DNA from: a virus
IMG/VR virus record: IMGVR_UViG_3300030329_002482
Span: 1-20,173 of that record
Direction: 5' to 3' (one strand)
Length of the DNA stretch: 20,173 nucleotides
Shown: in pieces, positions 4,290 through 17,830 of the stretch
Numbering within the stretch: the first letter of the stretch is position 1
How the letters are laid out: every line of letters starts with the position of its first letter
The notes under the pieces: generated by a model
Seen by the model: the letters and a program-made list of their open reading frames with translations, nothing else
Database searches by the model: none
What the model was told of the DNA's origin: nothing
Translations under genes and position numbers: made by a program

Positions 4290-6551
4290 TTAGTTCCTCC
4301 TTTTTCTACTACCATATCTACCCTTGCCAGAAGGTTTTCTTGACTTACCGCTATACTTATCTTGAGTCATTACTGCAGCCCAGAATTGTTCAAATCTGTT
4401 TTGCAAAAAACTTTTTCTTGGGCTAGTCTCCGTTGCATATAAACCCTTATTAAATAGTTCAAACTCTGCTTTCAATAATATTCCTCTAGGATTACGCTCT
4501 TGATTACCTAGCTCTGTTTCAGTTCCAACAAGGTGAGAAATGTAATCACGGAAAGAAGTAAACCCAAGTTCTTTATTTCTATCAGTCATAAAAGAACCGC
4601 CATGCCTATATGCCATATCCCCTAATAGTTGTTTTAGTTCAGGATATTTTCTATATACACTAGGCTTAAGGAATTCATGATTATTAGTTAGAATTTTTAA
4701 ATTTTTATCATATGCCCACATACCTAATGCTTTCCCTTCTTCAGGAGTAAGCTTAAGGCTATCCCTGTTAGCTTGTTGGGCTGGAGTAAGAACATCTATA
4801 GGAGATTCTCCTCTTTTAACATGACCTAAAAATTCATGAAGATCAGGGGCTAAGAAATATTTTTCAAGTGCTTTCCACTTAGGACTTTCTGGTTTAAGAT
4901 TCAATTCCTTCCTTACCTGATTCATTATTTTAGTTTTGTGATTGGCATCTCCTTGTGCCATTTCCCATGCATTAACTGAAGGGCCAATTGCCGGGTCATC
5001 TAAATCATCAACTACATGAGCTAATCCATCTGCCTCTACTTTAAATCCTTCATTATATAAAAGATTATTTGCAACTTGCTCATCATATTCATCTGAATAT
5101 ATACTTTTTGGCACTGCAGACAAATCCTTTTTAATAACAGTTGAAGGAGTTACATCTACACGAAATCCGGGTTCACTTGCACCAAATTTGTCCTCAATTT
5201 TTTCAATCGCTGTATTAATAGTTGGCCCCGCCTTTTGTTTAACAACCTCAAGCTTTGCTTCTGCATTTTTAACAATAGTACTTACAGTATTTTTAATTTG
5301 ATTTTTAATATTTGGAGGTAATTCATCCCCAGTCAATACACCTGCAATAATCTTATTAACTATGGTGTCAACATCTCCAACACGAGGGTCATCTCCCGGC
5401 CCTACAAGACTTTTGTTTTTTCTTATTGCTTCATCCCAATATGCCCCCAATTTTTTCCCTGCATTTGCCATGATCTGCCAGATACTAGCTTCGGTTCCAT
5501 CTGGATTGATATTAGAAAATTCTATATCTAATACACCTCCACCATTGTTTATATTATCCTCTGCTTCTTCCCTTAATGTAGTTGGATCATTATTAATAAT
5601 CTTTTTATTTACAGGGTTTTTAATTGATGGTGGGCCTTTGTGTGGTTCAAATTTAGGTATAGTCTCTGATCCAGAATCTATTTGTTTCTTTTTCTTATGC
5701 TTCTCCTCAAGCAACTGTTCATTGAACTCATGTAGCGAAGTTTTCTTCAAACCAGCAGGTTTCTTTTCTGGTGTGTTAATAGTATAACCAAGCTGATTCT
5801 TAACATACGCAACCATATTATTAACATCATCCCTTGGTTCTGTATACACATCAGGATTATAGTACCCGGAATCTTCTGCCCATTGCATAAAATCTGTGGT
5901 AGCAGTATGCTGAGGATTTGTTGTTAGCTCTTCAATAATTTCCTCCCTTCTCTCCTCTATATCATCTCCTTTGTAATTAGCATAGTCTTCAAGTAGTCTT
6001 TGGGTAGCCTTAGGAAATAATCCTTTATATTTAACAACCAAATCATACTTAGATAACTGCTGAGTATCAGCTATATAAGCATCATAGATTTTATTCCACG
6101 TTTTCTCTATCTTATCTCGATCTCTCCATCCCCAAGCTCTACCAGCTTGCTGGATGTTACCCATCTCAACAGCTTTCATATGTAGTCCAAGCTTATGGGT
6201 AACTTCTCGCCTTTGATTTTCCTGATCTGTGATATCCTTCTGCCAGCCAGCCTTACGCATATCCCTGCCTATAGTACCACCGAAATACTCCTGAGGCTGT
6301 TGGTCTTTTTTTAATTTTAATCCTACTTTCTGTGCTCCTGCTTCTTGAGGTTGTTGCCCCTTATATCCAGAGTAAAGATCAGCACCAAAGATTTGGCCTG
6401 TCTTCTCAGCCATGTTAGCAAATGCACCACCAGCATATCCTATATACTGCCTAGTTCTTTCGGCATCCTGATTCCGTTGTGCTATCTGTTCTGATAACTG
6501 CTTATGCCGATATGGAAGTAACCTGCCACTGTCGTAAAATGCTATTGCCAT
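4290..6551 (-). CDS. Putative internal virion / ejection protein, 753 aa, with HEFLGH motif
   Basis: This 753-aa protein starts at the ATG at 6551, with AAAGGA about 7 nt upstream. The N-terminal third is helical and rich in charged and Gln residues. Residues about 260-320 form a Lys-rich linker, and 340-500 a mixed helical part. About 515-735 look like a folded domain containing HEFLGH at 572-577 (bases 4821-4838). The last 20 residues are very basic (many Lys/Arg/Gly), which could bind DNA or lipid. It has no signal peptide. It lies between the Gln-rich 491-aa gene and the giant gene, the place of the T7 gp15/gp16 type ejection proteins. I see no lytic transglycosylase signature. HEFLGH matches the HExxGH form of zinc site known from M49 dipeptidyl peptidases, but I see no convincing second zinc motif, so enzymatic activity is speculative. 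Confidence 0.8.
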   Translation of the reverse strand: MAIAFYDSGRLLPYRHKQLSEQIAQRNQDAERTRQYIGYAGGAFANMAEKTGQIFGADLYSGYKGQQPQEAGAQKVGLKLKKDQQPQEYFGGTIGRDMRKAGWQKDITDQENQRREVTHKLGLHMKAVEMGNIQQAGRAWGWRDRDKIEKTWNKIYDAYIADTQQLSKYDLVVKYKGLFPKATQRLLEDYANYKGDDIEERREEIIEELTTNPQHTATTDFMQWAEDSGYYNPDVYTEPRDDVNNMVAYVKNQLGYTINTPEKKPAGLKKTSLHEFNEQLLEEKHKKKKQIDSGSETIPKFEPHKGPPSIKNPVNKKIINNDPTTLREEAEDNINNGGGVLDIEFSNINPDGTEASIWQIMANAGKKLGAYWDEAIRKNKSLVGPGDDPRVGDVDTIVNKIIAGVLTGDELPPNIKNQIKNTVSTIVKNAEAKLEVVKQKAGPTINTAIEKIEDKFGASEPGFRVDVTPSTVIKKDLSAVPKSIYSDEYDEQVANNLLYNEGFKVEADGLAHVVDDLDDPAIGPSVNAWEMAQGDANHKTKIMNQVRKELNLKPESPKWKALEKYFLAPDLHEFLGHVKRGESPIDVLTPAQQANRDSLKLTPEEGKALGMWAYDKNLKILTNNHEFLKPSVYRKYPELKQLLGDMAYRHGGSFMTDRNKELGFTSFRDYISHLVGTETELGNQERNPRGILLKAEFELFNKGLYATETSPRKSFLQNRFEQFWAAVMTQDKYSGKSRKPSGKGRYGSRKRRN

Positions 6552-6585: not shown

Positions 6586-8061
6586 TCAATAACTCCACCC
6601 TTTCCTTTTTAAATTTCTTTTCCAAGAAGGTTGCATTTTCCCTGTACCTAAGGGTGCGGTCATACCACCTAGTTCATTTGAACGTGGAGCAGGAAACATA
6701 TTTGCACCAGAGGTCATTTGAGGTTGACCAAAAGTACCCCCATATTGTATTGTTCTTGAAGATGGCATGTCATATATACTTTGACCACCACCACTTACAT
6801 TTGATAGAGCTGGCTTTTTTAAGCCATGAAACATACGATTTTCATATGGTATATTATTAGTTGTATTTGAAATTCGTGTTATTTCATTGCCTGAAGTCGA
6901 AACTTGGTCTTCTAAACTTGGGAAAGAAGTTGCAAATTCATTTGTATCTTGCCTCCCAAACCTGCTGTACATATCAGCTTCTGCACTAGCTGCCCTACCT
7001 GCTTGGATTCCTGAGTAAAGATTTGCCGCAGTACCTGCAATAGCAAGACCTGTCTGTATACCCCTGCCCATACGACCAGCATTGTATTCATCAACCTGTT
7101 GCTGTGCCATCTGGTCACTAAGCATAAGCTCCTGTTCCCTGCCCATACGTTGCTCTTCTATACTGGTTCTCCTGTCAGACATTGCATCACCAAACTGATC
7201 ATAAGCTTGGCTTGCCTGCAATGATCTTCCTGCTAGGTTAGCGAACCTATCTCCTGTAGCACCATACTGAGATGATAGTGCAAGGTTAGCCTGTGATCTA
7301 TTAAGCCCTGCTGTAGCAAGATTCATTTGATCTGCTATACGTGACTGGTGTGCCTGTGCCATAATCTGATCTGCCTGTTCTTCCTGACCAAGCATACCTG
7401 ACTGTTGCATTATCCTGTTAGCATCTACTTGCATTTCCTTCATCCTATTCTCCTGACCTGCAAACCAACCCTGCTGTTTAGCCTTAGCAAGGTTAGTACC
7501 TGCTGTACTCTGTGCATCCATCATAAGCTTTGCTGCTGCCACAGGATTTGTTTTTGCTAAGCCAGAAGCTACTGCCTGAGTCTGCTGTAATGCAGCTTCA
7601 TTACCCATCTTTGCGGCATCCATTACCATAGCTTGCACTGCATCAAAGCTTCCGGGTTGATACTTTTGTGACTCAAGATCTAATCTGTAAGCTTCTCTCT
7701 GCTTCTGTCTTTGCATTGATCTTTCACGTAGTCCTGCATAATGTTGTCTATCATCTGCAAGTTCGCCAGCTCTTCTCTCTCGCATGGCGGCTGATGTAAT
7801 ACCTGCTTGTGCTGCACCAGCTTGTGATTCTGATCTACCATATAATCTACGTGCTTCGTCACTATCGGTAAGGTATCTGCCATACTCATCTTGAGCACGG
7901 CCTTCATACATATCCCTCCTAGTACCATATCTATCATATGACTTATCGGATCTTTCCTTCCACTTCCTTAGCTCTTCTGGATTATGGAGTCTTCTAGGAT
8001 CAGACATCTTGGGGCCGCCAAGACTCTCAAACATTCCTCTAATTGCTCTGCCTAAGGCCAT
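6586..8061 (-). CDS. Gln/Ala-rich helical virion protein (gp14-like internal protein candidate), 491 aa
   Basis: This 491-aa protein starts at the ATG at 8061 with GAGG 7 nt upstream. The N-terminus is basic; residues about 30-330 are almost wholly helical and rich in Gln, Ala, Met and Arg, as expected of a coiled-coil or bundle protein. A short Ala/Gly/Ile-rich segment near 328-350 is the only stretch that could cross a membrane. The last 110 residues are Gly/Ser/Pro/Asn-rich and probably disordered, ending in a basic Trp-containing tail. The helical Gln/Ala character, one hydrophobic segment and its position first in a row of three growing proteins fit the small internal (ejection) protein of podoviruses. 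A tail-adaptor or other structural role is the alternative. No catalytic motif is visible. A 34-nt gap without a hairpin separates it from the 753-aa gene. Confidence 0.8.
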   Translation of the reverse strand: MALGRAIRGMFESLGGPKMSDPRRLHNPEELRKWKERSDKSYDRYGTRRDMYEGRAQDEYGRYLTDSDEARRLYGRSESQAGAAQAGITSAAMRERRAGELADDRQHYAGLRERSMQRQKQREAYRLDLESQKYQPGSFDAVQAMVMDAAKMGNEAALQQTQAVASGLAKTNPVAAAKLMMDAQSTAGTNLAKAKQQGWFAGQENRMKEMQVDANRIMQQSGMLGQEEQADQIMAQAHQSRIADQMNLATAGLNRSQANLALSSQYGATGDRFANLAGRSLQASQAYDQFGDAMSDRRTSIEEQRMGREQELMLSDQMAQQQVDEYNAGRMGRGIQTGLAIAGTAANLYSGIQAGRAASAEADMYSRFGRQDTNEFATSFPSLEDQVSTSGNEITRISNTTNNIPYENRMFHGLKKPALSNVSGGGQSIYDMPSSRTIQYGGTFGQPQMTSGANMFPAPRSNELGGMTAPLGTGKMQPSWKRNLKRKGWSY

Positions 8062-8070
8062 AGTTTTACC

Positions 8071-8979
8071 TCACTTACGTAGTCTATTTAATGTTTGTCG
8101 TGCTAATTTTTTAGCTCGCTTTGCTTCAGATCTTTTTACTGTAAGCATTCTTTTAGTAGGAGTTTCATAATTACCTGATGCTGTTGAGTTTTGTGCACCT
8201 GCTGTATGCGGTGAATTTCCTGCCTGACCAGTACCACCTAAGGCTGGATTATCATATGAACTTGCACCAGCACTCCCACTTTTTGCACTAGTAGTACCTG
8301 CTCTGTTCATTCTTGGGTGTTCAAACCAATCCTGATTCCAAGGCCCACTATCAGTCCAGTAATTGTCATAATAAACGCCATAATGTATAGTGCCTTTCTT
8401 TGCAACAAAAGAAAGTGTTCCACTACCTGATAAATAAAAATTGCCACCAGTAAGCCATAAAGTATTTCCTGAGATATTATCTATCATAGCTCCATTCGCT
8501 GGCCCTTCTATTGGATGTCCTACTACTGATCCACTATTTTGCATTCTCTGGCCTTTAGTTATTGTTCCTGTGGTTCCTGTAAATGTAACAGCATTTGAAC
8601 CAGAAGACCATGATGCCCCTGTTAATGTTCCTGATATATCGCTTGTATTGTAATTTCCCGTATTACCCCCACCCAATGACGTAATAGCAGGCCACCAATG
8701 CCATGTAGATCCATCAGTTTCTTCATGATCTTTTAATTTATCTTTATACTTATCCATTGACTCTAAAATTCCATATGATTCTGGAGAACCGGGTGTAGTA
8801 TATCCTGCCATTACAACATCATTCATATTATTCATATCACCTATAACTGTATTAACTTTAGCTGTTATAGCAAGTACATCATTAACCATAAGATTAAGCT
8901 TATTTTTTAATTCGCTAATATTATCCTCTAATGTTCTAATTTGTGCAGTCTGTAAGGTATCTATTTTTTCAGTTGCCAT
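8071..8979 (-). CDS. Appendage/fibre-like protein, paralogue of the upstream 183-aa gene, 302 aa
   Basis: Residues 1-75 form a coiled coil (IDTLQ..QIRTLED..SEL..KLNLMVNDVLA) that matches the N-terminus of the 183-aa protein encoded just upstream nearly position by position. The last 35 residues (NYETP..MLTVKR.EAKRAKKLAR) also match that protein's basic C-terminal tail. The middle, about 90-270, is unique: a Thr/Ser/Gly/Trp-rich beta module with KGQRM and TLWLTGG patterns, then a Gly/Ser/Ala-rich linker. The gene therefore looks like a duplicated copy carrying an inserted beta module, as is common in phage fibre evolution. It starts one base after the TAG of its paralogue, with AGGA about 11 nt upstream. 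A trimeric virion appendage is the best guess; receptor binding by the module is inference. Confidence 0.8.
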   Translation of the reverse strand: MATEKIDTLQTAQIRTLEDNISELKNKLNLMVNDVLAITAKVNTVIGDMNNMNDVVMAGYTTPGSPESYGILESMDKYKDKLKDHEETDGSTWHWWPAITSLGGGNTGNYNTSDISGTLTGASWSSGSNAVTFTGTTGTITKGQRMQNSGSVVGHPIEGPANGAMIDNISGNTLWLTGGNFYLSGSGTLSFVAKKGTIHYGVYYDNYWTDSGPWNQDWFEHPRMNRAGTTSAKSGSAGASSYDNPALGGTGQAGNSPHTAGAQNSTASGNYETPTKRMLTVKRSEAKRAKKLARQTLNRLRK

Positions 8980-8980
8980 A

Positions 8981-9532
8981 CTATGTAGTCCTTTTAACTA
9001 ATGTTCTTGCTACCTTCCTTGCTCGTTTTTCATTTTTAATTTTTAATGTCATAACTGCTGTTTCTTCAGGAGCATAGTTAGCAACCATTGTTGCTGTCTG
9101 GGCTGTTGCAGTATATGTAGTTCTTGGGTTATTATTTCCTTGAGCTGTTCCATCTAAGTTACTTACAGATGTACCTCCAGTCTGCCATATAGAAGAACCT
9201 TCATTTGCAGGAGGATGGGATTCTTCATATGTAGCTCCACCCGGAGCAGTTGCTGCAGTAGGTAAATACCTATGATCTTCAAGTGCTTGAAACAATTGAT
9301 CCAATCTTTTTAATATGCCGGTATTCGATTCACCTCCACCACTTGCCACAGAATAACCTGCATTAATAACAGTGTTTAAATCATCTGCATCTGAAATTGC
9401 TGTATTAAGCTTAGTTGTTAGTGCAAGAATATCTGCAACAACAAGATTTAATTTATCCCTTAAATCACTAACATCATTTTCTAGAGCAGTTATCTTCTCC
9501 GATTGTATTATATCAATTTCTGCTAAGCTCAT
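8981..9532 (-). CDS. Coiled-coil appendage-like protein, paralogue of the downstream 302-aa gene, 183 aa
   Basis: An N-terminal coiled coil (about 5-60, with ITALENDVSDLRDKLNL) leads to a short Gly/Ser/Ala/Thr-rich middle (about 70-145) and a basic C-terminal tail (LKIKNEKRARKVART). Both ends correspond to those of the 302-aa neighbour; the middle is shorter and lacks that neighbour's beta module. The ATG overlaps the TAA of the upstream gene as TAATG, suggesting translational coupling. No enzyme motif is present. Being next to tail genes and paired with a paralogue suggests a minor virion appendage or fibre-base protein; the exact role is unknown. Confidence 0.8.
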   Translation of the reverse strand: MSLAEIDIIQSEKITALENDVSDLRDKLNLVVADILALTTKLNTAISDADDLNTVINAGYSVASGGGESNTGILKRLDQLFQALEDHRYLPTAATAPGGATYEESHPPANEGSSIWQTGGTSVSNLDGTAQGNNNPRTTYTATAQTATMVANYAPEETAVMTLKIKNEKRARKVARTLVKRTT

Positions 9533-9780
9533 TAGCTATAACCTGCTTCCTTCCTCTCCTCTGGTGTCATTTTAGAATATCTTTGCCTTTCAGCCCAGCT
9601 AGATCTCCTTTCGTCAGTCCATAATAGTTCACACAATGCCTGTATTTCAGAATTAACAGGGGAGTCTGAGAAGTTATGGTCTGGATTTAATGAATATTTT
9701 TTTCGTTTTCCCTCTATTTCTTCGTGATAGTTGCAAATACCATACTGAAAATTAAAAGATACTGATATTACTTTACCCAT
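9532..9780 (-). CDS. Hypothetical small protein, 82 aa
   Basis: I do not recognise this 82-aa protein. The N-terminal half has beta-like alternation (MGKVISVSFNFQYGI) and the C-terminal half is charged and helical, with TPEERKEAGYS at the end. It starts 8 nt inside the 66-aa gene (ATGGATGGGTAA region) and its TAA shares a base with the ATG of the 183-aa gene. This tight nesting between two structural genes on the same strand supports it as real and co-translated. It could be a small virion or assembly factor, but nothing in the sequence shows which. Confidence 0.65.
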   Translation of the reverse strand: MGKVISVSFNFQYGICNYHEEIEGKRKKYSLNPDHNFSDSPVNSEIQALCELLWTDERRSSWAERQRYSKMTPEERKEAGYS

Positions 9781-9973
9781 CCATTAATACTGCTAGTGTT
9801 TCAGACTGTTCTTTAATCATTTCCCTTAGATTTGCCACCTCACCAGACAATGCAATTACCTTAGATCTAAGTTCTGCATTAATTCTCTCCTGATCCCTGA
9901 AAGCCTCCTGTGTTATCTGATCTTCTATCTGGGAAGCAACTACATTTATTCCATATCGTTCTGCTTCAGCCAT
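9773..9973 (-). CDS. Small coiled-coil protein, 66 aa
   Basis: This 66-aa protein is almost entirely helical. Residues about 15-62 carry a heptad-like pattern (ELRSKVIALSGEVANLREMI). No membrane segment or signal peptide is seen. The ATG overlaps the TAA of the 185-aa gene as TAATG, and its own end overlaps the next start by 8 nt, so it sits in a chain of coupled genes. The coiled coil resembles in character, but not clearly in sequence, the N-termini of the 183- and 302-aa appendage proteins, so it may join them in an oligomer. That partnership is a guess. Confidence 0.65.
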   Translation of the reverse strand: MAEAERYGINVVASQIEDQITQEAFRDQERINAELRSKVIALSGEVANLREMIKEQSETLAVLMDG

Positions 9974-10530
9974 TAGCTGGGTACTGCTGGAGTTTCAACA
10001 TCACTTATACTAATGTCAGTTTCAAATGAACCAACATAACCTCTTGGATTATTATTAGTATTATCGATCTGCTTCCATTGAAATATGTATCCCCTACTTC
10101 CTGATGGCATATAAAACTTCTCAGTCTTCCATCCAGTTGAGCTAAAGAAACGACTAGAACCTATCTTAGTGCCATCGAAATACATATCTATAGTAACATC
10201 ACCCTTGTATGTAATCTGTGCTTCTGACAGCTCTTTAACAACTCTGTGAGAAGCTATTGGGGCAGCAACTAACTCACAACTAACCATGTCACAGCCCTCC
10301 TCTATACTAACCTGTACCAATGATCCAGCTTGGGAGGGGTTAGGGAAAATTCTAAGAGGCAGAAGCTTCCCTTTCACTGCAAGCCCCGCACCAGAAATTG
10401 TTTCTGTGCCTGCATGATCCCCATCCACAGCAAAATTAAACTTCAGATCATCACCATCCTCTCTAGGTATTACGCCAACAAGTGCCTGATGAAAAACTAC
10501 TGGTGCTGGATACTGTTGAAACTCTGCCAT
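9973..10530 (-). CDS. Beta-rich protein homologous to the C-terminal domain of the giant tail protein, 185 aa
   Basis: Residues 108-157 of this 185-aa protein align with residues 2116-2165 of the 2181-aa protein encoded just upstream: YKGDVTIDMYFDG against YKGDIDFRVMLDG, then K.E.FYMPSGSRGYIFQWK against K.ERVYLPASSYGQRIHYM. The preceding 40 residues (VQVSIEEG..) may also correspond. It is thus a free-standing copy of that domain, probably a beta sandwich. The N-terminal 60 residues are not obviously shared. Its ATG overlaps the big gene's TAA (TAATG), so the two are likely translated together. A structural role beside the tail nozzle, for example as a decoration or fibre attachment protein, is inferred. 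Confidence 0.8.
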   Translation of the reverse strand: MAEFQQYPAPVVFHQALVGVIPREDGDDLKFNFAVDGDHAGTETISGAGLAVKGKLLPLRIFPNPSQAGSLVQVSIEEGCDMVSCELVAAPIASHRVVKELSEAQITYKGDVTIDMYFDGTKIGSSRFFSSTGWKTEKFYMPSGSRGYIFQWKQIDNTNNNPRGYVGSFETDISISDVETPAVPS

Positions 10531-13500
10531 TATGCTGCCATATTTCCGTTGAACTGTACTGATTCTATAGTACCTGACATACTCTCATTCATATAGTGTA
10601 TTCTTTGTCCATATGAAGATGCTGGTAAATAAACTCTTTCTTCTTTAAACTCACCTTCTGGATTAGTTAGTTCCTTCCTGTATATAAGCTTGCCATCTAA
10701 CATAACCCTGAAATCAATATCACCCTTATAGAATACATCAGCACTATGAGTTAGCGTGTGTGCCTGATACTGCTGAAGTGGATAGTGTCTTATTGATAAT
10801 GTCTGAACCCTTACATTACCCTGTATTTTTACAGATATAGTTCTAAATCTACGAAGATCATTTAGGTATAAGTCAGCAGACAATGGCTCAATCCTATCAC
10901 TCGGAGGGAGAACAAAAGTTCTTGCTGCTGTTGTATCATTATTAAGGAATACATCTACTACAGGTAGGTTGCCCCAGTATATTGTACCCGACCCACTCCT
11001 TAGTGGCTCTTTATCAAGAAGTAGTGCAGGATATGTAACACCACCAACAACTGAAGTAGTCACACTACTAACAATAGTATTGTCTGCAAGCATCTCATTC
11101 CATATTCTATCACCAGCCTTAATTGTTGATGTATCAAAATCAAGGGGCATAACTATCTTTTTACGTTCTGTTTCAGATAAGTTACCACCACCTATATCAA
11201 TCTCAAAATACTGTTCGGCATTCCCATAGTTGATAAACACATCATACATATCTACTTCTGAGTCAGCCCCTGCTGCTGCTAAATCACCTGCATCTAAGTC
11301 ATCTGGGTTCATACCCAATAAGGAAGCGGCTAGAGACTGACCTCGTATGCCATCTGACAATGTAACTGCTGACTTAGAATCAAGCACCTCATATACAACA
11401 GCTAATGAACCTAATGCTTTTGCAAGTGCAGGCTCTCCTGCATCAATCTTCTTGCTTCTCCATGATATATTAGTAGCTTTAGTTGAGCCTATCTCACTTA
11501 CACTGAATGTGCTGTCACTATCTGATACCTGATTATCTTTAGTTACAACGATAGCCTTACCAAGAGCCTTTGAATAATGTGCATAGTAGGCTTCTATTGA
11601 AGTCTTACAAAGTCTTAAGTCACCGCCTGTAATCTCAAGTCTGAATCCAGTACCATTACCCGGCTTCTGGAATAACCAGTAAACTCCATCTGCTACTAAA
11701 GCTCTAGGTTTAACAAGATTAGTTATTATATGTTTGTCCCTAGTTAAATACTGAACCTTACCAGCCTGATAGTATGCAATCCCATCATTAGCAGTAAGCC
11801 ATAATACCCCGCCACCAAATGTTGCTACTGTTTGTTCGTCACCATCCTTAATTCCATGTGCATCTGGAACCCTAAAAGCTATCATTGCTTTAGGATCAGT
11901 ACCCCTCACCCTGTATAATGAGTTAGTTGTCCATACAAGACCTTCACCTGCATGCTCCATTATTGCCCTGATTTCTGAGTCTAGTGTAACAACTGCATCA
12001 AGAGGCCAGTACTCAGGAGTTCCATACCTTGAGAACTGCAAGTTTGCATCTAATGCACCAAAGTACATTGATCCTACTGCTGTTATATACCTATAATAAT
12101 CCTCACTACTTTCTGTTTCAAAGAAGTTTTTCTTTTCTTCATTATATGTAAGACCTACTGGAGGATAGTTATCATTTTGTAGGTAGTGCAGTGATGTTAC
12201 TGGTGCTCGTGCTTTGTCCCTATACCCAAAACTATTAATCTCTATTGACATACTTTCTACATCTTGATCCGTAAAGTTCTCCTCATAACTGAATACTGTT
12301 ACTCCAGCATTGTGCGTAGATGGTAAGCTTCCTGCTGCATTAGTTGTACAACCTGTAAGTTTATTAGGAGTAGTTGTTAGATCTCTCCCAGTATAATCAT
12401 ATATTTCATTGCCTATAAGAATCCTGCCTGAGGCTTGGAATAATGCAGCATCTTCAACTTCTATGGTTATTGCACCAGTGGCGGCTGCATATGGGTTAAT
12501 AATATCTGTTTCAAGTGTTGTGGTATCCTGATTTCTATGCTCTATTTCAAGCACCCACTCAATTACATTAACAGCCTTTGCTGCTTCGTGTCTGCTTGCA
12601 GATGAATCATACTGTGCACGTTCACATCCTGTTAATGATGTACCTGATATACCAGTATACGATACATATTCTTCCTCAATCTTAACAACTCCTGCAGTAG
12701 GCCAAGCACTTGGGTTTGTTGTGCTGGCTAAGGCAATCGTTGTAGCTGTCTCATTAATCTCAGATGATAGTGTAGTTGTGTAAGCAACACTGGGAGAAAC
12801 ATTTTCACTAAGCTGAATTATATTCCATGAACCATCCATATCAGATGGTGATGTTATCTTCTTAAGTGTATGGGTTCCTACACCATCATCTGTTAAAGCT
12901 ATTACAGTACCAGTAGGAGTAGTAGCTAGAGTAATAGTATCTGCGTCTACTTTTGTTTTTACATAGTAATCATTCCCTGATACAAGAGGTTCTGGGAGAT
13001 CATCCCCAGATAGCCTTACCTTATTGCCAACCTCAAGCCCATGTGCAGAACCAAAGTCTAAGTTATTAGCATTAGATGAAAAAGTTGTTGTAAATGTTTG
13101 CCCTGCACTTATCCCTGTTGCAGTTAAATCAAAGTTTGAATTAGTAAAACTTCTTAACTTAGTTATATCTTTAAATGTTTTAAAGTTGTAAAACTTAGAT
13201 AAGGCAGATACACGAGCAAATGAACCAGTCAGACTACCTAAAGTAAGTGGGAAGCCTGTTAGATCAGGCATATCTATATCACGAAGGAACATCCATTCTG
13301 ATGAATCACCACCATAACGATACACACGAATAGTTTCTATATCTGTATTGTCAAAGTGAAAGAAGTTCTCATCAAAGTTAATCTGTATGCAATCATCTGC
13401 ACTATCTAATGGTTGTATACCTTCAGCAGATGCTACTGATGGAGCACTTTCATTCCCCCATTTATCTAAGAAAGAAGCACGATAATAAAAATCTATATTC

Positions 13501-16500
13501 GGCCCATAAGGATTAAACATATTAGGTGCACCAACTAAGAAAGCAGAGATTCCAACCTTTGAGGCATCAAATGCATTGTTTGCTGCATCTGCATTACCTA
13601 AGGTATATCCTATTTCTGTAGCATCAACACCACCTTTAAGTGGTATTGCTTTATCATTTAGTACATAAAAGTTTTGACCTGCTTCCTGATAGTTAGTAAA
13701 TGAAATTCTATTGTTTGCACCAGTTTGCCCAGTAGATGGCAGTACAGTCTCAGATGTTTTAAAGAATGCTACGTTACGAATAACCTTGCTTTTAAATTTA
13801 ACTTCAATTTTAGGATTTGTTATTTGTGAACCTACCCCTCCTGACTGTAGTGTTGCTGGAGCATCTAGTATGTACCATGTGAATTCATTTTGATCTCCTA
13901 GCATTTTATTAGCTTCATGGTTTAATCCTATAGTTGGATCTCCAGTACTATTAAAAACCCCAGAATCAAACTTCCATTCTACTGAAAGATACCTTGGTGT
14001 GCCCTGATCAGTTGCCTCCCCTTCTCTAGTTTTTATTACTTGTCCCCAAGCAGATATATTATTGCTACTAGAAGAATGATTAATCCAAGTATTTTTAAGA
14101 TCAGATTCAAAAAATGGTACTGCTGTATGTACATCATATTTTTCTGTAGAAGCATCAGTGTTATCTGTTCTTGTTATGCCCCAAACTTTCAGTCCATCAA
14201 AGTGTAATGGCTTAACAAAGTCGTATGATAGTATAGATGTTTCTGGTTTTGTTGAGCCTGTCTTAACCAACCTCCATCTAGGTGTGGAATCTGCATTAGG
14301 TTTAATCTTTACAAATACAAATACAACACTGCTTGCTATTAAATGTAATGCATCTTCAACCAATCCTGTAAGTCCAAGACCAACTGCTTGTTCTGGCTTT
14401 GCCTTGGTATATTTAACATTATAGTATGGGTCATATACAGTAATACTATTGTCATCAACAACAGACAGGTAATCACTTGTTAAATAATAAACCCCAGCAT
14501 TGCTAAATACCCTAGATGATGGAGCTACATCACTGTCAGTACCATTCTGAGAGTAAAGCTTTTGATTCCCTTCAGCCCCCTTTACATAAAAGATTCTAGG
14601 TTGAGAACCTGATGTTGCAGTTACTGCCCTAACATCAAGCATACCATCAGTGCTATCTTTCCATTTGATAGTATGCTTATAATCAGAGTTTGTTGCTTCT
14701 GCTCCTGAGTTTGCTCTTACTTCTATGGTTTGTTTTGTATCACTGTTAGGTTCAATTGGAGGCCGATGTCCTATTAATACATGACCAAAGAGGTCAGTCT
14801 GTAGCACTTCCCTCTCAGAACCATCAAGTGCTTCATCTACTGTTGCAGGCTTATAAATATAAAAGTTACTTGCATTTTCTTCATTAAATGGATCAATAGA
14901 ATTTATAACCGGATAGCATTCTTCATCTCTAAAATCTCCATCACCGGGGTACGTTGCTCCTTCGCCTATTCTTTTTAAAAATAGTTTAGATGAACTATTA
15001 TTAATACTTGTTATCTCAGCCAAAAAATAATCTTTTTCGTGCTTCCTATGTGAATTAGGAAGTTCATTCATATTACTTTCTGATGGCCTTACTATACTTC
15101 CTGATGAGTTAATTCTAAAAGAAGTATTCCATGATAATGTTCTATTGCCGTTTCCTTGCACTTTAATAACATCCCCAACTGTAAATGTTTTGTCAGATGC
15201 ACCAGTAAAAGATATGCTTTTTTCACTCCTATTTATAGTTGCTTTAGCCCATAGCTTAGATCTTGCAAATCCTGTTTGTACTGTCATTGAACCACCGGGA
15301 GTATAGCTACATAATCTAATTATATATGAGTCATAACTACCTGTAATTTTATTCTGGTAAACATTGGCTCTACTTGTTGAGTGCCTACTTGTTTTTACTA
15401 TATTAGATTGATCTGATCTCGTCCAACTACTTGAAAGAGTATGATGATTTTGCCATGAACCACCAACTGATGGTGCCCAACTATAGTGTTGTTGTTGTAT
15501 TCCTTTTTTACCTGTTCTCATACTATAGTGATAATAAAATTCAGTCTTACTGGCAGTGACTATACCTTTTACATAATAATCTCTCCATGCTTGTTGACTA
15601 GACCAGTATCTCCCTAATGTTTTAGGAATGCTATTATTTGTATATGTTATTTCAAAATCATATGCTGGAACTCTAAGTTTATAATGTGGAGCTATAGTGT
15701 AATATTGATAACTTTCAGGGCCACCTCCGGGGAAACCTCTGTCATTAGTACTAAGCACTTGTCTGGAATTCTCTGCATAAGAAACGCTAATATTGTTTAC
15801 ATCATTTTGACTTGGAGTTTGATTACTTTTATTTATAAGAAAAAACTGAGGTTTATTACTTCCTACTTTTACTTTTGTCCATGTATTCGATTGAACAAGG
15901 CATGCTGCCCATTTAATTCCTTGGTTAACAGTTCTATTATAAGCAGTATTTCTCCCACCTTTTACTGTCACTGTAGTAGATTGCCAACTAGCCTTACCTC
16001 CTTGTTTTTCTGGAGGATTAGATCCTGATTTTGACCATATTTCTATATCATCACTGCCTGCATTCCAGTTACCACTTGATTCTCCATCAGTAAAATTATC
16101 TCTTACTAATAAAAGAATTGAAGTACGAGAAGGTGGTAGTATCCACCTCTCATCTGCACTACCAGTGTATTCAGTAGGAGTTGTATTTGTTGTTTTTATT
16201 TTTTGAGCAAAGGTAATAACACCATTACATATGTCAACACTGCTAATTTCCTGACCTGTTGCACCAGAGGTAAAACCAAAGTCACTGCCTGCATTCCCAC
16301 CCTGACTTACATCAACAGTATCAAATGAATTAACAGTCATTGATGATGTGCTAAGCTGCACAGTATCTAAATGTTGAGCATCCCAACAGATAAAGTAGTT
16401 TTCTTTAAATAAATAACCACCGCTATGATGTGTAAGATTACCAGACTGTACTAGATTAGTAGTCCATCCCCCAGAACCATCTGGCTGACGAGTAGTAACC

Positions 16501-17075
16501 TTCCAGTTAGATGTACTATCATCTATCCAGTAAGGCTGACCACTGTAATAGTATATTTTTTTATCTGTAGCGTTAGTATCTGCCCTGTGTTCTTCTAGCG
16601 AGGGGGCATTACTGTATGGTGGGGTTAAAGTTTTATCTCCTGTGTCTACTATACCAAACTTGTCACCTTCTAGTTTTAATAGATGCGATCCCTCTGCGGG
16701 TCTGAGTCCCCTAGAACCTTCTGAGACAACAGATCCTGTGATAATAGACTTGGGAGGTAGTGAAGGGCCAAGGTTCCTAGATACATTTGCATCATCATTT
16801 ACTATCTCTTCAAACTGAGGTCTTTTATTATCGAATGTTTTAACAACTCCGATACCAGATTCCTCAAATGATACAGCTTCTGAATCACGTATCCACTCAC
16901 CCCGGTAATGATAATGACCAGCATCTGTTAACTCTTCTAACCCATCTCCGGGTTCAAGAGCAAAGCCCTTTAAGTTAATATCAAGGGCTTCTTCTCCTTG
17001 GTCATCACGTAGATTCTGGGGATCAATCTCATTTGATATACCACCAGTAAATTGTCTAAGTACATTCCTTGGCAT
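10530..17075 (-). CDS. Very large tail nozzle-like (tubular B-type) protein, 2181 aa
   Basis: The N-terminus (FTGGISNEIDPQNLRDDQGE.. DINL, residues 9-40) has the pattern that opens podoviral tail tubular B or nozzle proteins. Near 1193-1210 is FYYRASFLDKWGNESAPS, typical of their beta domains, and near 1704-1780 a segment (GEGLVWTTNSLYRV.. GGGVLWLTANDGIAYY) typical of their beta-propeller core. Additional modules include about 1340-1404 (VGNKVRLSG.. DYYVKT.. GTHTL) and two related LTGC modules around 1440-1495 and 1525-1590. Residues about 280-780 are Ser/Thr/Tyr/Trp-rich and look inserted. The C-terminal domain (about 2075-2165) is copied in the next gene. At 2181 aa it is about 2.7 times T7 gp12. 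The start at 17075 follows an AGGGG about 9 nt upstream. A combined nozzle and appendage protein is the likely reading; fibre-like or baseplate roles remain possible. Confidence 0.85.
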   Translation of the reverse strand: MPRNVLRQFTGGISNEIDPQNLRDDQGEEALDINLKGFALEPGDGLEELTDAGHYHYRGEWIRDSEAVSFEESGIGVVKTFDNKRPQFEEIVNDDANVSRNLGPSLPPKSIITGSVVSEGSRGLRPAEGSHLLKLEGDKFGIVDTGDKTLTPPYSNAPSLEEHRADTNATDKKIYYYSGQPYWIDDSTSNWKVTTRQPDGSGGWTTNLVQSGNLTHHSGGYLFKENYFICWDAQHLDTVQLSTSSMTVNSFDTVDVSQGGNAGSDFGFTSGATGQEISSVDICNGVITFAQKIKTTNTTPTEYTGSADERWILPPSRTSILLLVRDNFTDGESSGNWNAGSDDIEIWSKSGSNPPEKQGGKASWQSTTVTVKGGRNTAYNRTVNQGIKWAACLVQSNTWTKVKVGSNKPQFFLINKSNQTPSQNDVNNISVSYAENSRQVLSTNDRGFPGGGPESYQYYTIAPHYKLRVPAYDFEITYTNNSIPKTLGRYWSSQQAWRDYYVKGIVTASKTEFYYHYSMRTGKKGIQQQHYSWAPSVGGSWQNHHTLSSSWTRSDQSNIVKTSRHSTSRANVYQNKITGSYDSYIIRLCSYTPGGSMTVQTGFARSKLWAKATINRSEKSISFTGASDKTFTVGDVIKVQGNGNRTLSWNTSFRINSSGSIVRPSESNMNELPNSHRKHEKDYFLAEITSINNSSSKLFLKRIGEGATYPGDGDFRDEECYPVINSIDPFNEENASNFYIYKPATVDEALDGSEREVLQTDLFGHVLIGHRPPIEPNSDTKQTIEVRANSGAEATNSDYKHTIKWKDSTDGMLDVRAVTATSGSQPRIFYVKGAEGNQKLYSQNGTDSDVAPSSRVFSNAGVYYLTSDYLSVVDDNSITVYDPYYNVKYTKAKPEQAVGLGLTGLVEDALHLIASSVVFVFVKIKPNADSTPRWRLVKTGSTKPETSILSYDFVKPLHFDGLKVWGITRTDNTDASTEKYDVHTAVPFFESDLKNTWINHSSSSNNISAWGQVIKTREGEATDQGTPRYLSVEWKFDSGVFNSTGDPTIGLNHEANKMLGDQNEFTWYILDAPATLQSGGVGSQITNPKIEVKFKSKVIRNVAFFKTSETVLPSTGQTGANNRISFTNYQEAGQNFYVLNDKAIPLKGGVDATEIGYTLGNADAANNAFDASKVGISAFLVGAPNMFNPYGPNIDFYYRASFLDKWGNESAPSVASAEGIQPLDSADDCIQINFDENFFHFDNTDIETIRVYRYGGDSSEWMFLRDIDMPDLTGFPLTLGSLTGSFARVSALSKFYNFKTFKDITKLRSFTNSNFDLTATGISAGQTFTTTFSSNANNLDFGSAHGLEVGNKVRLSGDDLPEPLVSGNDYYVKTKVDADTITLATTPTGTVIALTDDGVGTHTLKKITSPSDMDGSWNIIQLSENVSPSVAYTTTLSSEINETATTIALASTTNPSAWPTAGVVKIEEEYVSYTGISGTSLTGCERAQYDSSASRHEAAKAVNVIEWVLEIEHRNQDTTTLETDIINPYAAATGAITIEVEDAALFQASGRILIGNEIYDYTGRDLTTTPNKLTGCTTNAAGSLPSTHNAGVTVFSYEENFTDQDVESMSIEINSFGYRDKARAPVTSLHYLQNDNYPPVGLTYNEEKKNFFETESSEDYYRYITAVGSMYFGALDANLQFSRYGTPEYWPLDAVVTLDSEIRAIMEHAGEGLVWTTNSLYRVRGTDPKAMIAFRVPDAHGIKDGDEQTVATFGGGVLWLTANDGIAYYQAGKVQYLTRDKHIITNLVKPRALVADGVYWLFQKPGNGTGFRLEITGGDLRLCKTSIEAYYAHYSKALGKAIVVTKDNQVSDSDSTFSVSEIGSTKATNISWRSKKIDAGEPALAKALGSLAVVYEVLDSKSAVTLSDGIRGQSLAASLLGMNPDDLDAGDLAAAGADSEVDMYDVFINYGNAEQYFEIDIGGGNLSETERKKIVMPLDFDTSTIKAGDRIWNEMLADNTIVSSVTTSVVGGVTYPALLLDKEPLRSGSGTIYWGNLPVVDVFLNNDTTAARTFVLPPSDRIEPLSADLYLNDLRRFRTISVKIQGNVRVQTLSIRHYPLQQYQAHTLTHSADVFYKGDIDFRVMLDGKLIYRKELTNPEGEFKEERVYLPASSYGQRIHYMNESMSGTIESVQFNGNMAA

Positions 17076-17449: not shown

Positions 17450-17830
17450 TTAATATGTCCATACAGTTGGTCTTGGCCCTTCATCTGGGGATAATATATC
17501 AAGATGTACAAATCTTTTTGCGTGAACACCTCTTTGACTCATACCTACCCCACTCACCCCATGCTTTTGTGCAATAGTAAATAACCTCATAGCATCAGCA
17601 CCAGATATAAGTATGTCTGCTGCCTTAGCAAATGTATGTGGCCCCTTCTTCCCTGTTGTAGACACCCTCTGATTATGCTCCTCACACCTAAAACCAGATG
17701 TAATCTTCAGTGGCCTTTGCATTTCATCTCTAATAGATTGAAGAATCCTCATAAATTCATCATCCATATCAGATTTGCCACAACAAGAACAGGCCATTTC
17801 ATCAGTTGTAAAGTTCTTAGTTATAAGCAT
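17450..17830 (-). CDS. M15-family peptidase, probable endolysin, 126 aa
   Basis: This 126-aa protein matches the single-domain zinc D-Ala-D-Ala carboxypeptidase / L-Ala-D-Glu endopeptidase type (Peptidase_M15_3). SGFRCEEHNQ lies at 45-54, the zinc ligands are probably H65 and D72 in PHTFAKAADI, and the last ligand H109 lies in RFVHLDI. The usual Gly of the first ligand motif is Ala here. An N-terminal ACSCCGK cluster holds three cysteines, as often seen in this family near EF.C. There is no signal peptide or cell-wall binding domain, so export through a holin would be needed. The ATG at 17830 has GGAGG 7 nt upstream. It follows five small membrane-type genes, consistent with cleaving host peptidoglycan cross-links at lysis. 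Confidence 0.85.
   Translation of the reverse strand: MLITKNFTTDEMACSCCGKSDMDDEFMRILQSIRDEMQRPLKITSGFRCEEHNQRVSTTGKKGPHTFAKAADILISGADAMRLFTIAQKHGVSGVGMSQRGVHAKRFVHLDILSPDEGPRPTVWTY

Follow-up and report, generated by a model that had tools for sequence, protein, structure and literature searches.

Genes B and A and their surroundings

The window, a 20,173-nucleotide stretch of the virus record IMGVR_UViG_3300030329_002482, carries two adjacent genes on its minus strand, the strand of all features given below by window position. Gene B (8981..9532) encodes 183 residues and gene A (8071..8979) encodes 302; both start with ATG, and they lie head to tail in the order B then A, separated by a single base. 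Each protein divides into three parts. The N-terminal region of B (residues 1-86; 9275..9532) contains a heptad coiled coil at about residues 10-58, with a confidently predicted helix over residues 3-60. It is followed by a middle with an HPP motif (residues 87-128; 9149..9274), delimited by comparison with other family members, and by a C-terminal region (residues 129-183; 8984..9148) that ends in a basic helix according to alignment, model and shuffling. In A, the N-terminal region (residues 1-84; 8728..8979) is again a heptad coiled coil, recognised from its core positions and from a confident predicted helix from residue 2 to about 57. The middle spans residues 85-247 (8239..8727), and the C-terminal region (residues 248-302; 8074..8238), defined by model, alignment and DNA profile, also closes with a basic helix. 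The a and d positions of the coil are I, L, V or M in 13 of 14 cases in A and 11 of 14 in B, and the last 25 residues carry net charges of +9 and +8, respectively.

A sequence-only reading of this DNA had taken the two for duplicated genes sharing an N-terminal coiled coil and a basic C-terminal tail around differing middles. Aligning A with B, as that reading proposed, bore out each of these points and revealed homology outside the low-complexity coil as well. A blastp comparison matched A residues 1-134 to B with E=1e-19 and a second block, A 221-299 with B 106-181, with E=2e-5. Within the window the two proteins are 42% identical in the N-terminal region and 41% in the C-terminal region, and their middles cannot be aligned with each other; the DNA of the coils is 71% identical over 84 bp. 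To control for false coil similarity, the residues of B's coil were permuted within their heptad classes in 5000 trials. The observed score of 137 compares with a maximum of 91 among these shuffles, which rules out the low-complexity coil as the sole source of the likeness. None of 5000 shuffles reached the observed score for residues 59-87, nor for the last 55 residues, and the basic 25 residues taken alone are weak (85 of 5000 shuffles reach the score). A and B are thus tandem paralogues, with homology that continues beyond the coil.

Upstream of the pair lies a 2181-residue gene (10530..17075) that matches phrog_511 (E=4e-21). A profile built from distant relatives of this gene hits chain 8jov_A (E=8e-33), one of six chains in the entry of a podophage portal-tail complex, and a profile including the window's own nozzle segment matches the same chain with E=1e-14. 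The best reading of its product, from profile match and gene order, is a hexameric nozzle-type tail protein. Next to it, the accessory tail gene g185 (9973..10530) resembles the end of the nozzle-type protein in its second half (22% identity over 88 aa in one pairwise comparison, E=4e-7) and may be a duplicated nozzle domain. The small coiled-coil-like protein g66 (9773..9973) occupies, by position only, the place of a fibre-anchor-like gene in distant relatives. Downstream of A, g491 (6586..8061) stands where distant relatives encode their 'DNA ejection' protein; it has no family match and combines a conserved N-part with a hypervariable C-part, the first 365 residues being almost identical among three phages and residues 366-491 unalignable.

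Two relatives, L001 (a 29.8-kb contig) and L010 (62 kb), were found by IMG/VR scans, and L024, L025, L026 and 14 distant phages were found in IMG/VR through the nozzle gene, the last group including contigs matching PH1 and VPMS1. Contig PBPE01000002.1 (L018; 29,752 bases), from a Dehalococcoidia MAG, appears to be the same sequence as L001; a phage contig in such a MAG is likely either a binning error or a hint of the host. Among the 14 distant phages, 12 have a gene of 46-202 aa following the nozzle gene, and the other two have genes of 665 and 1313 aa there, both matching tail-fibre PHROGs. Inspected by eye, nine distant phages have this gene followed by a cupin-like gene and then by a 'DNA ejection' gene; the copy of the cupin-like gene that was tested, in L027, matches the 'short tail fiber' family phrog_12032 (E=5e-35), and the L028 copy of the ejection gene matches 'DNA ejection' phrog_21132 (E=2e-60). 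In podoviruses of the VPMS1/PH1 type, a fibre-anchor-like gene and a 'tail fiber adhesin' or short tail fibre of phrog_12032 fill the interval between the nozzle-type and DNA ejection genes that is filled by A and B in the window, although these nozzle-proximal genes have no detectable homology to A or B. With the nozzle-type gene upstream, ejection-place genes downstream and fibre or adhesin genes in this interval in distant relatives, the gene order places A and B in an appendage locus.

The wider arrangement recalls SU10. The L010 contig encodes an SU10-type adaptor (PF24175, E=8e-13), and the SU10-like order of fibres, lysis and nozzle is matched in the window, where a Phage_tail_APC tail fibre assembly gene (PF16778; 19004-19528) and an M15 peptidase gene, probably an endolysin (17450-17830), lie upstream of the nozzle gene. 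Genes lying upstream in L010 comprise a fibre with SAKEWA repeats and small tip-like genes, so long fibres exist there as a separate module.

Ends and middles across phages

The B-A tandem occurs in four phages (the window, L001, L010 and L024), with A of L024 open at the contig end; A and B of the window each have orthologues in the other three. L025 and L026, which are alike at the locus, carry a single family member (HMM E=5e-15), which implies that one copy can suffice and that two forms are not obligatory. The distribution of the tandem and the support for the A clade (86/99) indicate that the duplication predates the split of the window, L001 and L010; this timing covers those three phages, and the L024 pair may stem from the same event or from another, the tree favouring neither. 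In B of L010 (L010:8758-9333), 4 residues are inserted in the coiled coil, which equals a heptad stutter in size.

Between the window and L001, A is 79% identical in its N-terminal and 82% in its C-terminal region, and the middles (162 versus 52 aa) give no meaningful alignment. The same comparison with L010 gives 53% and 56% for the ends and again no alignment of the middle. The middle of A in L024 is likewise unalignable with that of the window. For B, the identities of the N-terminal, middle and C-terminal regions are 87, 55 and 82% with L001 and 66, 33 and 54% with L010. We computed z-scores all-against-all for nine members, every one of which has the heptad coil. The N-terminal scores are 6-56 in all pairs, and the C-terminal scores are mostly above 5, weak only for A of L024 against the B copies and in a few other pairs. 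The A middles score about 0-3, both among themselves and against B.

The A middle also changes in size, from about 52 to more than 200 aa among phages; that of the window exceeds those of L001 and L010 by about 110 aa and is non-repetitive in sequence and rich in aromatic residues. B middles are 42-46 aa long and keep the HPP motif while their sequence drifts. Glycine, serine, threonine, asparagine and proline together make up 42-57% of the middles. Because the A middles are unalignable and the B middles keep both length and HPP motif, we regard A as the diversifying copy and B as the conservative, length-stable one. The expectation that relatives would show conserved ends and middles variable in sequence and length therefore holds in full for A; for B it holds for sequence but not for length. 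Judged from these comparisons, only A's middle appears to be freely replaced or to diverge rapidly, and B's drifts at constant length.

Structure prediction was informative for the helices. In the AlphaFold models, built from 2 sequences for A (pLDDT 41) and 6 for B (pLDDT 59), these parts alone are confident, and A's middle has a pLDDT of about 20-35 with nothing beyond short, low-confidence strands. As this middle also matches no family in Pfam or PHROG, the 'beta module' that the sequence-only reading assigned to the larger protein is not confirmed. Searches of Pfam, PHROG and PDB with A and B returned generic coil matches and nothing that resembles, in sequence or profile, a known family of fibres, needles or receptor-binding proteins. 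A alone had no match in the close-relative scan, neither protein had one by tblastn against phage GenBank records, and the A3 profile matched no distant locus at E<=0.1. In the literature we found neither a sandwich-type receptor-binding protein nor a tandem marine podovirus fibre pair matching A and B. Within the libraries covered by these searches, A and B form a protein family that has no described relatives.

Exchange of the g82-B-A cassette

Upstream of B lies g82 (9532..9780), a small gene found in the window and L001 and absent at this place from L010, L024 and L025. Between the window and L001, dS is 0.34-0.78 in g82, B and both ends of A, and 0.01-0.15 in the nozzle C-part, g185, g66 and the N-part of g491. 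DNA identity in 60-bp bins drops sharply close to 9750 and is back at 98-100% by position 8142. This places one crossover within the codons for the terminal helix, in the conserved basic tail of A. Since selection on the protein has little effect at synonymous sites, the dS jump is best read as replacement from a diverged relative of a cassette of roughly 1.6 kb (8143..9750, ends approximate), conserved ends included, between the lineages of the window and L001. Movement of the middle alone between these two phages is rejected, as dS jumps in the ends too. Recombination at these genes is thus visible in the DNA, but the unit exchanged between the window and L001 is the g82-B-A cassette with its ends and not just the middle.

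The ends of A and B are under purifying selection in the same comparison (dN/dS 0.17-0.36), and the alignable part of A's middle has a dN/dS near 0.8. A donor for any A middle was sought by the close-relative scan, by tblastn of phage GenBank records and elsewhere in the window, and none was found. The neighbouring g753 (4290-6551) is itself a mosaic: its residues 500-753 are 99% identical to L010 and its DNA is about 53% identical to that of L001, an affinity opposite to that of the nozzle gene.

A possible role at the tail

We propose that the two paralogues serve a short-tailed phage as appendage proteins, situated at or next to the tail nozzle and bearing a variable display middle, and we put the probability of this reading at about one half. 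It is favoured by the paralogy beyond the coil, the conserved ends around unalignable A middles, the cassette exchange, the purifying selection on the ends, the heptad coil in all nine members, and the content of the locus in distant relatives and in SU10. In such an arrangement, the roughly seven heptads of the N-terminal coil would probably make each protein a trimer and fix it to the tail, and the conserved C-terminal part, basic helix included, would dock back on the virion or close the structure. The Gly/Ser/Thr/Asn/Pro-rich middle could then be displayed as a loop or small domain contacting the host surface, B serving as the length-stable partner and A as the diversified one. Diversity would arise when phages exchange the g82-B-A cassette, one crossover lying in the conserved tail codons of A, and when A's middle is replaced or diverges rapidly; recombination in the conserved ends or flanking genes may in this way refresh the displayed segment. 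Virion location, trimer, display and host contact are all parts of the model that we infer. Several observations weaken it: neither protein matches a family, the structural models are unreliable outside the helices, and strongly basic tails, as in A and B, are untypical of fibre tips. Given the separate long-fibre module upstream in L010, A and B need not be the receptor binder. Nor is variability alone proof of surface exposure, as the presumably internal neighbours, g753 and the C-part of g491, are hypervariable too.

Those neighbours lend themselves to a different account, in which both paralogues would be small internal proteins that are ejected together with the DNA, the basic tail binding DNA or membrane. 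The pair adjoins g491 and g753, which stand in the place of ejection proteins and are likewise part conserved and part hypervariable, and the basic C-terminal helix would suit such a function. We nonetheless consider it unlikely, because distant relatives have fibre or adhesin genes in the corresponding interval ahead of the ejection gene, and because a long-heptad coil joined to a Gly/Ser-rich middle is appendage-like. Still less probable is a reading of the middle as a disordered linker under no constraint, free to drift and to gain or lose length, with neither module exchange nor host contact. The composition of the middles, their low pLDDT and the dN/dS of A's middle would agree with a linker; the long, non-repetitive and aromatic-rich middle of the window's A, the retained length and HPP motif of B and the demonstrable recombination of the stretch (dS jump and DNA identity profile) would not.

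A narrower version of the appendage reading makes A or B a tail needle or plug, a trimeric coil that sits in the nozzle channel, retains the DNA and has an exchangeable distal part. In SU10 the gene after the nozzle encodes the trimeric needle gp18 and precedes the ejection genes, a position that A and B share only approximately, since g185, g66 and g82 lie between the nozzle gene and B. P22-like needles (gp26, Sf6, HS1) likewise have heptad shafts, of 11-16 heptads, with conserved N-terminal virion-binding ends and exchanged tips (PMC3741392). The coil of A and B is shorter than these, at about seven heptads; their basic C-terminus is conserved and the variable part lies in the middle; and there are two tandem paralogues where one plug is needed. 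We found no homology of A and B to the SU10 needle and fibres, hhalign with gp18 was not significant, and a PDB profile search showed generic coils only. A needle or plug is for these reasons about as improbable as the linker.

The appendage reading finds its closest functional parallel, as distinct from membership, in the T-even gp38-type tip adhesins (T2, PP01, S16), which combine a constant framework with Gly-rich hypervariable inner segments. A and B match no gp38 family in Pfam or PHROG, and the models of their middles are too uncertain to show a polyglycine-helix sandwich domain. gp38 sits on gp37 and is not known to have an N-terminal heptad coil of the kind found in A and B. Textbook fibres have a constant N-terminus and a variable C-terminus; in A and B the C-terminus is also conserved and the middle varies. 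A constant attachment end and diversification by recombination, as in ordinary phage tail fibres (PMC10386132), are features that A and B share. Recombination diversifying a phage tail part is a known kind of biology, and it is the layout that is unusual, with both ends fixed around a replaced middle and a split into constant and variable paralogues. We suggest, tentatively and as something rather doubtful, that the pair represents an undescribed class of podovirus tail tip, in which a hypervariable segment lies between coil and basic helix, a constant B and a diversifying A form mixed appendages, and cassettes are exchanged among marine phages through crossovers in the conserved ends.

Fixed ends around a replaced middle are what one would expect if the part faced a host surface that changes, the role proposed here. 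The pair would offer a candidate host-contact part for an uncultured marine phage group, its variable segment marked to within a few residues, and the recombination map shows that codons of a conserved tail can act as a crossover point. The nozzle-type protein also varies among the window, L001 and L010: its residues ~300-750 and 1320-1410 are hypervariable or rich in indels, possibly inserted host-contact domains, and the rest is 80-100% identical.
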